Source: Salinarchaeum sp. Harcht-Bsk1 | Lineage (GTDB): Archaea; Halobacteriota; Halobacteria; Halobacteriales; Salinarchaeaceae | Length of the DNA stretch: 64,000 nt | Direction of reading: 5' to 3' | Assembly (NCBI RefSeq): GCF_000403645.1 | Contig: NC_021313.1 | Location: 1,755,014-1,819,013, forward strand | Shown: piece after piece, positions 2,231-48,790 of the stretch | Numbering within the stretch: the first letter of the stretch is position 1 | Layout of the letters: the number at the start of each line of letters is the position of its first letter | Notes under the pieces: model-generated | The model's input: only the letters and a program-made list of their open reading frames with translations | Told to the model about the DNA's origin: nothing | Database searches by the model: none | Made by a program: the position numbers and the translations under genes

Positions 2231-2868
2231 CGGAAGCCCCATCCCGCTCGACCGTCCGCGCCTCGTTGTGCTCCTCGCTCACTTCGTTCGCTGCGGTGGC
2301 CGGAGGTTCCCTCCGGCACTTGACGAGCTTCGCTCGTCATCGCTTATGCCGTCGGGGACGGATCGAGCGGTCGGCCCCTTCCGAAGCCCCGCCCGTGTGA
2401 TGTCTCACCGATCACGGTACCTCGGTAGTTCTCGTCGGCGCGCGCTGGGGCGGTCGCGAGCCCCGAAGCGGGCGAGCGGCCGTCGCCAGCCAGCGTGCGA
2501 GGGCCGAGCGATGCTGGACCGGAGGTCCAGCAAGTCTGAGGCTTCGCCTCAGGCAACGCAGTGGTGAGCGAAGCGAACCCGAGCAGCGTCCTCGTGAGCG
2601 TAGCGAGCGAGGGCTCGGAAGTCGCAGCCCGCGAGCGAAGCGAGCAGGAATGTCTTCCGGTGCAGAAGGCTGGGGAGGATTGAGGCTGCGTTCGGGTGGG
2701 ACTGGAAGGGGCCGACCGGTCGTTCGATTAGGCGACCTAAGCACCGCAGCGACCAGCGGGAGCGAGGAGCGTCGTTCGAAAGACGCTTCGCGTCTTTCCT
2801 GATCACGAGAGATCTCCGATCTCTCGGACGACAACGAGCGTAATCGAACGAGCGGGAGGGGCTTCCAA
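2231..2868 (+). repeat. Dispersed intergenic element, copy A (full length)
   Basis: This is the longest copy of a repeat family found at seven places in the window. The left end reads GGAAGCCCC and the right end GGGGCTTCCAA, forming outer inverted ends. Inner inverted arms lie at about 2365-2395 and 2693-2722; the right one contains GGGACTGGAAGGGGCC. The core holds perfect hairpins at 2513-2531 (arms GCTGGACC, loop GGA) and 2536-2552 (arms CTGAGGC, loop TTC). The right half adds hairpins at 2779-2797 (arms AAAGACGC) and 2807-2825 (arms GAGAGATC). It fills the divergent gap between the DUF5786-like gene and rfcS, 139 and 102 bases from the two starts. Confidence 0.85.
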
Positions 2869-9420: not shown

Positions 9421-9837
9421 CTTGGAAGCCCCCTCCCGCTCGCGCTCGCTCGGTCGCTGTGCTCCTCGGCTCGCTGCCGCTCGCCTGTGGTGCTTACTTC
9501 CCGAGCGAACGCGACCGGTCGGCCCCTTCCAGTCCCACCCGATGGTATTCCCACCGATCGCGAAACCCCGGTGGACCACCTCGGCGCGCGCTGCCGCTGG
9601 CTGCGAGCCGCTTTCCGGCGAGCAGCCAGTCGCGCGACACCGTGCGAGGGCCGAGCACCGCAGGCCGGAGGCCGAGGAGCGCAGAAGGCTGGGGAGGAAT
9701 GAGGCTGCGGTTGGGTGGGGCATCGAAAGGGGCCGGGCGGTCGGCGGTCCCCGGGCGAAGTAAGGACCGCAGCCGAGCGCAGCGAGGCGAGGACCGCAAC
9801 GAGCCCCGGGATTCCGAGCGCTCGGGGGCTTTCGGAG
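9421..9837 (+). repeat. Dispersed intergenic element, copy B
   Basis: This copy begins CTTGGAAGCCCCCTCCCGCT and ends CTCGGGGGCTTTCGG. The inner left arm GGCCCCTTCCAGTCCC is at about 9511-9540. The right arm near 9713-9744 has drifted (GGCATCGAAAGGGGCCGGG). The core at 9599-9656 is identical over 58 bases to copy F at 48459-48516. The two core hairpins of copies A and D are replaced here by a short imperfect palindrome near 9657-9680. It lies between the purS promoter and the guaAb stop, 40 bases past that stop. Confidence 0.85.
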
Positions 9838-28734: not shown

Positions 28735-28846
28735 GGCCGCATTCGGGCCGATGGCCGCAAAAGGTCGGCGGTTCGTGGGCACGCCTCCGACTCCTACGCG
28801 ATCGATTCGGCGTTCCAGCGGGCTTCGCGAGCCTCCGCACTCTTAT

Positions 28847-29087
28847 CGGGCGGGACTGGAAGGGGCCGACCGGTCGCGTTCGCTCACGAAGGTGAGCCGA
28901 GCGGAGCGAGGCGAACGTCGAAAGACGAGCGAAGCGAAGTCTTTCGGAATAAGCACCGCAGGTGAAGGAGCGGAGTCCTGTCGAGCGAAGTGAGACAGGG
29001 CTCGGGAGAGGAGCGGAGCGAGTCTCCCGGCGCGACCGAGCCGAGGAGCGCAGCGAGTGAGCGAGCGAGAGCGGGAGGGGCTTCCAG
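28847..29087 (+). repeat. Dispersed intergenic element, copy C (right half only)
   Basis: This copy starts at the inner right arm, with GGGACTGGAAGGGGCCGACC, and runs to the outer right end GCGGGAGGGGCTTCCAG. The left arm and core are absent. The middle has an eight-base stem, CGAAAGAC with GTCTTTCG, around 28918-28945, and many GAGCGAAGCGAG-type blocks. It sits in the divergent gap between the DUF5807-like gene and the dehydrogenase, 113 and 105 bases from their starts. Confidence 0.8.
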
Positions 29088-42159: not shown

Positions 42160-42250
42160 GGCCCAGTCTCGGGGTTGGGCGGTGCTATAGCTTTTCATTC
42201 TGTGGCTAGGGATGGCAGGGAGGGATCGTGGAGGGGTAACTGAATATTCC

Positions 42251-42772
42251 GCCTACGGATTCCGGGAGATCTCCGATCTCCCGACGTCGCGGCTTGCGCC
42301 GCGACAGCCCCCTCCCGCTCGCGCCCGCTGACTCGCTGTGGTCCTCGGCTCGCTGACGCTCGCCTGCGGTCCTTGCGTCGTCAGCGAACGCGACCGGTCG
42401 GCCCCTTCCGGAGCCCCGCCCATTGTGTTTGGGTAGTATCGCGAATCTCCGGTGGACCCCCTCGGCGCGCGCTGAGCGATGGCCGCGAGCCCCCCGCGGG
42501 CGAGCGGCCAATCGCCGACACCGTGCGAGGGCCGAGCGATGCTGGACCGGAGGTCCAGCAAGTCTGAGGCTTCGCCTCAGGCAACGCAGCGAGCGTCAGC
42601 GACGCGAGTAGCGCAGAAGGCTGGGGAGGAATGAGGGTGCAGTCGGGTGGGACTGGAAGGGGCCGACCGGTCGATCCGCCCCCGGCGAAGTAAGCACTGG
42701 AGCGAAGGAGCGTAGCGACTGAGGGAAGCGCGCAGCGAGCCGCGGCTGGTCGAGCGGGCGGGGGCTTCCAAG
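42251..42772 (+). repeat. Dispersed intergenic element, copy D (outer end interrupted by hairpins)
   Basis: The left boundary CCGCCTACGGA is shared with copy A. But between GGA and AGCCCCCTCCCGCTCG, where copy A is continuous, copy D carries 46 extra bases (42260-42305) that fold into two perfect hairpins: arms CGGGAGATC around TCC, and arms GTCGCGGC. The rest has inner arms at about 42391-42420 and 42643-42673. The same two core hairpins as copy A are at 42541-42559 and 42564-42580. The right end is CGGGGGCTTCCAAG. It separates leuS from the ocd-like gene, 47 bases from the ocd-like stop. Confidence 0.85.
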
Positions 42773-48379: not shown

Positions 48380-48790
48380 CTTGGAAGCCCCTGACCGCAC
48401 GCGGTGAATGGTCCACGCTGCGCGAAACCCCGGTGCCCCACGTCGGCGCGCTGCCGCCGGCTGCGAGCCGCTTTCCGGCGAGCAGCCAGTCGCGCGACAC
48501 CGTGCGAGGGCCGAGCGATGCTGGATCGAAGATCCGGCAAGTCAGTGGCTTCGCCTCAGGCACCGCAGCGAGTGCAGCGAAGCGAGCGAGGGCTCGGAAG
48601 TCGCAGCCCGCGAGCGGAGCGAGCCGGACCGTCTTCCGGTGCAGAAGGTTGGAGAGGATCGAGGCGCGGTGGGCGGGACATCGAAAGGGGCCGACCGCTC
48701 CGGGAAGCACGGCGAAGGAAGTACTGGAGCGACCAGAGGGAGCGAAGCGCACAGCGAGCCGCGCGACCGGAGCAGTCGGGGCTTTCGAAG
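48380..48790 (+). repeat. Dispersed intergenic element, copy F
   Basis: The outer ends are CTTGGAAGCCCC at 48380-48391 and CGGGGCTTTCGAAG at about 48777-48790. The inner left arm is missing. The core at 48459-48516 is identical over 58 bases to copy B, 39 kb away. The core hairpins of A and D are present but imperfect (GCTGGATC with GATCCGGC at 48520-48538). The inner right arm reads GGACATCGAAAGGGGCCGAC. It lies between the stops of rnhA and the aminopeptidase, at 51 and 47 bases. Confidence 0.85.

Follow-up and report, generated by a model that had tools for sequence, protein, structure and literature searches.

A double-hairpin cassette in the end unit of a composite repeat upstream of leuS in Salinarchaeum sp. 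HArcht-Bsk1

The 46 bases that interrupt one end of a composite repeat upstream of leuS in Salinarchaeum sp. HArcht-Bsk1 form a double-hairpin cassette, here called T1, that is optional and has been acquired repeatedly. This cassette is likely to be a complete miniature element inserted in one end of a short mobile repeat, and one of several families of that kind. We read T1 as an inserted element since it is optional at orthologous sites and recurs in unrelated repeat copies, and insertion of a miniature element is the best-supported mechanism. The window analysed is a stretch of 64,000 nucleotides (C1:1755014-1819013) of the HArcht-Bsk1 genome (G000), which is a single contig of 3,255,260 bp (PMC3715672), and the sister species S. 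laminariae (G001) was used for comparison.

The T1 cassette in copy D

Copy D of the composite repeat (42257..42769, no strand assigned) consists of a centre with an end unit on one side and an inverted end unit on the other, and has relatives in both Salinarchaeum genomes, with more than 50 loci in HArcht-Bsk1 and about 60 in S. laminariae. Further whole or partial composite repeats in the window are copies B, C and E (9427-9835, 28816-29085 and 48384-48790). Copy D is intergenic, with the next gene on one side and on the other the minus-strand leuS gene, which starts at 42198 and has the repeat some 60 bp upstream of it. The end unit measures about 110 bp (GGAAGCCCCCTCCCGCTCG...CGGTCGGCCCCTTCC), and its outer end, GGAAGCCCC, is unbroken in 78 other ends. 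The original prediction placed 46 extra bases between GGA and AGCCCC in copy D, at a site that is continuous in copy A, and this was confirmed: copy A reads CCGCCTACGGAAGCCCC without interruption (2224-2240), whereas copy D has CCGCCTACGGA (42249-42259, of which 42257..42259 on the + strand is the GGA of the repeat end), then T1 (42260..42305, +), and then the remainder of the left end unit or X unit, AGCCCC...GGCCCCTTCC (42306..42409, +). The flank CCGCCTACGGA is common to copies A and D, and is found in exact form only at those two places.

The arms of the two perfect hairpins are likewise as predicted. T1 in copy D reads TTC CGGGAGATC-tcc-GATCTCCCG AC GTCGCGGC-ttgc-GCCGCGAC, with 9-bp arms in hairpin 1 (42263..42283, +) and 8-bp arms in hairpin 2 (42286..42305, +). 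The two hairpins differ from each other, there is no terminal inverted repeat, and no direct repeat is present at the junction. A search for adjacent hairpins (arms of at least 7, loop of 3-7 and spacer of at most 12) gave six pairs in the 64-kb window, five of them in copies A and D, compared with 0-2 (mean 0.4) in ten Markov-1 controls, and the paired hairpins of the window are therefore more than chance. As single-stranded DNA the T1 stretch has a predicted folding energy of -20.5 kcal/mol, with a z of about -5 relative to shuffled sequences for either strand.

Two stem positions of T1 vary on both arms, one from ATC/GAT to ACC/GGT and the other from GGC/GCC to GGG/CCC, and these hairpin variants were seen in all four combinations. 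Such covariation, together with the position about 60 bp from leuS, is what one would expect if the hairpins were retained for an RNA or regulatory function, for instance by acting as a terminator or by giving leuS a structured 5' leader. We nevertheless regard this as very improbable, and the terminator or leader reading was rejected: both strands fold equally well, the loops occur in either orientation, no T run follows T1, an Rfam search of the window gave no match, copies are found at unrelated genes, and the sister species lacks T1 upstream of leuS even though the sequence beside the leuS start is conserved. The loops themselves are 3 nt long in 97/114 paired hairpins, and 84 of these 97 are pure purine or pure pyrimidine in near-equal numbers; loops are also flipped on identical stems, as with CGAGAGATC, which carries TTC at locus L104 and GAA at L076. 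Fold-back copying between arms (quasipalindrome correction) would yield both loop inversion and perfect stems, and may be what maintains them here. Perfect stems with inverted loops are not in themselves proof that an RNA is under selection, and stem covariation in such repeats need not signal an RNA gene.

Recurrence in repeat ends and turnover at orthologous sites

T1 is present in 13 repeat ends, three in HArcht-Bsk1 and ten in S. laminariae (three of the 13 are decayed or have a mismatch, the decayed copies including L077 and L232), while 78 ends are empty. The insertion point is GGA^AGCCCC in all 13 ends, and the two hairpins always form the same ordered pair. The proposal that short hairpins are movable units thus stands insofar as the 46 bases are optional, being absent from the orthologue and from 78 ends and present in 12 ends besides that of copy D; it does not hold for the single hairpin as the unit, as T1 always comes as its ordered pair and the hairpin of copy A belongs to another cassette, T2 (described below), with a partner, ends and insertion sites of its own. 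A scan of 84,980 genomes, which may leave out the HArcht-Bsk1 genome itself, for the exact T1 pattern with free stem tops gave nine matches in S. laminariae and one in a bacterial metagenome-assembled genome, the latter a chance match with no second hairpin. The exact pattern gave no match in viral contigs, and looser patterns (4 errors) gave spurious matches that were left out of the counts. In the repeat loci of eight other genomes double hairpins are almost absent, with one in G004, so that T1 is no general feature of these repeats. The G004 case (locus L254, about 955-1020, from another haloarchaeal family) combines CGGGAGA..TCTCCCG with GTCGGGCGC-gaa-GCGCCCGAC. It lies close to a repeat end, with what may be a CGAG direct repeat on its flanks.

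In a tree of 89 end units, of which eight were labelled as carrying T1, seven changes were needed against a mean of 7.75 for random labels, and a single T1 clade was rejected (AU p 0.005), although the alignment has few columns and the tree weak support. The T1 bearers are scattered as if at random, which argues that T1 was not inherited as one repeat subfamily. The main rival for T1 is that it is itself immobile, having arisen once in a repeat end and then spread to other repeats through gene conversion or recombination. As T1 always breaks GGA^AGCCCC at the homologous position of the repeat, exchange between repeats could spread it too; the repeat family is large, there is homology on one side of T1, and such exchange is plausible in polyploid haloarchaea. 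We still consider this unlikely, as the outer side of T1 consists of unique flanks with almost no homology, the bearers are spread over the tree without order, and the analogous T2 occupies non-homologous sites, among them other families of repeat and the interior of another cassette, for which copying between repeats offers no explanation.

The S. laminariae copy upstream of leuS has the same orientation as copy D and is 84% alike over 234 bases, and it reads CACACGGAAGCCCCC, with a clean GGA|AGCCCC junction and without the 46 bases; the sequence beside the leuS start is conserved between the two species, whereas the approximately 50 bp between this region and the repeat cannot be aligned. 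Ancestral presence of the 46 bases in all orthologous copies, the outcome named beforehand as speaking against movable hairpins, was therefore not found. The leuS element was found in no outgroup, and gain versus loss of T1 at copy D is thus not polarised. The converse case is a decayed T1 at L232 in S. laminariae, with none at the HArcht-Bsk1 orthologue L061. At L072, another T1-bearing copy of HArcht-Bsk1, the flanks are 311 bp apart in HArcht-Bsk1 and 133 bp apart in S. laminariae, which probably lacks the entire repeat at this site, with a junction alignment that is not clean at base level.

This pattern extends to the other cassette families: among the 13-14 cassettes compared at orthologous repeats, each is present in one species only and none is shared, and the cassettes therefore turn over faster than the repeats in which they lie. 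Confined to HArcht-Bsk1 are T1 and T8 of copy D and the T2 cassettes of L076 and L105, whereas those confined to S. laminariae are T1, T3 and a nested T2 at L232, T3 and T2 at L194, T3 at L228, T3 and T7 at L221, T2 at L225 and T3 at L202 (the last matched on one flank only). These comparisons also bear on the reverse explanation, in which the repeat end originally contained the 46 bases and most copies have lost them by deletion. Perfect hairpins are known to be prone to deletion during replication, and decayed T1 copies do exist (L077 and L232), but this explanation appears improbable to us given the 78 empty versus 13 filled ends, the absence of a direct repeat at the junction that could guide a precise deletion restoring GGAAGCCCC, and the lack of any shared cassette at orthologous sites.

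T2 and the other cassette families

A survey of the stretches around repeats identified 66 double hairpins at the repeat loci of both Salinarchaeum species, and the composite repeats contain the families T1, T2, T3, T5 and T7/T8, each with characteristic sites. T3 is found at GGGACT^GGAAGGGG, and some of its copies have short direct repeats. T7 and T8 have an AGT spacer and the target AGC^ACCGCAG in common and wholly different stems. Copy A contains both a T7 (2299..2339, +; GCCGGAGG-ttc-CCTCCGGC act TGACGAGC-ttc-GCTCGTCA) and a T8 (2512..2552, +), and the T8 of copy D (42540..42580, +; TGCTGGACC-gga-GGTCCAGCA agt CTGAGGC-ttc-GCCTCAG) is missing from the orthologous S. laminariae copy. A decayed T8 (GCTGGATCGAAGATCCGGC) was also noted in copy E. 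Separately, an insert GGTGAGCCGAGCGnAGCGAGGCGAACGTCGAAAGAC..GTCTTTCGGAA was seen at GAAG^TAAGCAC at L087, at L095 and at 28885-28950 of the window, and hairpins containing tandem G-A mismatches could arise from its GAGCGNAGCGAG motifs.

The similar hairpin that the original prediction reported in the right half of copy A is indeed present (CGAGAGATC-tcc-GATCTCTCG, 2806-2826), as the second half of a different cassette, T2 (2771..2832, +), which reads GTCGTTC GAAAG..CTTTC ..TGATCA CGAGAG..CTCTCG GACGAC and follows the general plan GTCGTTCG..TGATCA..GACGAC. T2 occupies at least four unrelated contexts in Salinarchaeum, namely the end unit, two points of another, AT-tract repeat and the inside of a T7 hairpin, and several T2 copies are themselves interrupted by a further hairpin pair. 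With these contexts, and with T2 in many other genera, the suggestion that the hairpins move within the element proved too narrow. Among individual loci, the TGATCA spacer of T2 is split by a nested pair CTGAGCGGGATC...GACGAGAGC... at L194, L208, L224 and L232, and at L181 (about 1380-1450) and L226 T2 lies in the loop-proximal part of the T7 hairpin (TGACGAGCGAAG^CTCGTCA). In S. laminariae, T2-like cassettes occupy two sites of a second intergenic repeat, which has A/T tracts (GGCCTTTTTTGG..GATTTTTT; L102, L224, L225 and L227); the filler in HArcht-Bsk1 is a different one.

The 18-bp core of T2 (at most one mismatch) was found in 134/293 Halobacteriales genomes and in 52 of the 87 genera sampled, with 0 matches to the reversed core pattern in the genomes listed, and the double hairpin was detected at 27/31 inspected places, the surroundings being unrelated. 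A single core match in viral contigs lacks a double hairpin and was set aside, and a literature search on the core sequence gave no paper. The halves of T2 are inverted copies, GTCGTTCGAAAG..CTTTCGTGA and its inverted counterpart. In 34 parsed copies, which are not phylogenetically independent, base 3 of the left end pairs with spacer base 2 (C-G 27, G-C 6, T-G 1; Fisher 9e-7) and spacer base 5 pairs with the right end (C-G 22, G-C 12; Fisher 2e-9). Counting the one T-G as paired, 0/34 cases are unpaired on either side, and the ends lay outside the search pattern. Each half is thus built as a hairpin in a short clamp of covarying bases, GT(C/G)G-TT-hairpin-T-(G/C)A; T1 has no covarying ends of this type. 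In this many haloarchaeal genera, then, a double hairpin of 60 bp carries a tag that covaries, and lineage-specific cassettes such as T1 differ between two species at orthologous loci. The natural covariation of the tag with the dinucleotide past the hairpin offers a ready-made test of guide-type recognition of single-stranded DNA.

The cassettes probably move as folded single-stranded DNA, in which case a protein acting in trans might recognise the two hairpins, a mechanism that has been suggested for the REPINs of bacteria. An effect on the host would not be required for this, even for the T1 of copy D upstream of the conserved leuS start region. With regard to the enzyme, Y1 transposases (Y1_Tnp, PF01797) were not detected in HArcht-Bsk1 or S. 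laminariae, and a Y1 enzyme as the mobiliser in these two genomes was rejected on that ground. Across the 293 genomes there is a weak association between T2 and Y1 (99/35/87/72, p 0.001, odds ratio 2.3, uncorrected for kinship or genome size), and 35 T2-bearing genomes are without Y1. The presence of many cassettes and no Y1 genes in two hosts makes the mobilising enzyme a directly testable question. A wider view, which we put forward tentatively and consider somewhat doubtful as a whole, is that T2 and relatives such as T1 are REPIN-like double-hairpin elements of the entire haloarchaeal order, recognised as folded single-stranded DNA in the guide-type manner indicated by the tag and dinucleotide covariation, and, in some hosts, multiplied by a non-Y1 enzyme.

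Comparison with known double-hairpin and short mobile elements

The mitochondria of fungi and sponges contain double-hairpin and repetitive hairpin elements (PMC2800124) that are similar in architecture only, consisting of tiny paired hairpins with conserved stems and variable loops, without clear target duplication and with insertion differences between close relatives. They reside in organelle DNA, whereas the cassettes described here are archaeal, with T2 order-wide and possessing the covarying pair of end and spacer. The SMR-A elements of Haloquadratum walsbyi are 80-110 bp long with prominent terminal inverted repeats, and are inserted in near-terminal palindromes of IS605-type elements (PMC3119063). 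Like T1 and T2 they are haloarchaeal, lack a transposase of their own as well as a target duplication, and prefer insertion in other mobile repeats, but T1 and T2 are each made up of two separate hairpins and are about 46-62 bp long, and T1, with its 46 bp, has no terminal inverted repeat; the enclosing end unit of about 110 bp resembles SMR-A in size and inverted termini only.

REPIN-like elements are, to our knowledge, known mainly from bacteria, and a search of the literature on REP elements and haloarchaea gave nothing relevant. A REPIN consists of two inverted REP palindromes, in which bases of a tetranucleotide tag select the cleavage dinucleotide (PMC3116915, PMC8266576), and the REP of S. 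maltophilia is a perfect 8-bp palindrome with a 3-nt loop (PMC3116915, PMC3733652, PMC8266576). The cassettes share with REPINs and tagged REP dimers the two close, inverted short palindromes, the compensatory stem changes, the perfect stems of 8-10 bp and the 3-nt loops. In T2 the tetranucleotide GTCG or GTGG, set against GTAG in REPINs, precedes the hairpin by two bases and covaries with a dinucleotide on the far side of the hairpin, as expected for pairing between guide and cleavage site. With two inverted copies of one palindrome T2 has the REPIN arrangement, while T1, with its unlike hairpins, does not. Further differences are the archaeal hosts, the tag GTSG instead of GTAG in T2, the nesting of the cassettes in larger repeats, and the two Salinarchaeum genomes, in which no gene for a Y1 HUH transposase (RAYT) was found. 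Because of this absence of Y1, the weak association between T2 and Y1 and the lack of a tag in T1, we do not claim membership of the REPINs; T1 and T2 are best read as mobile elements of miniature size that resemble REPINs and lie nested in short mobile repeats.
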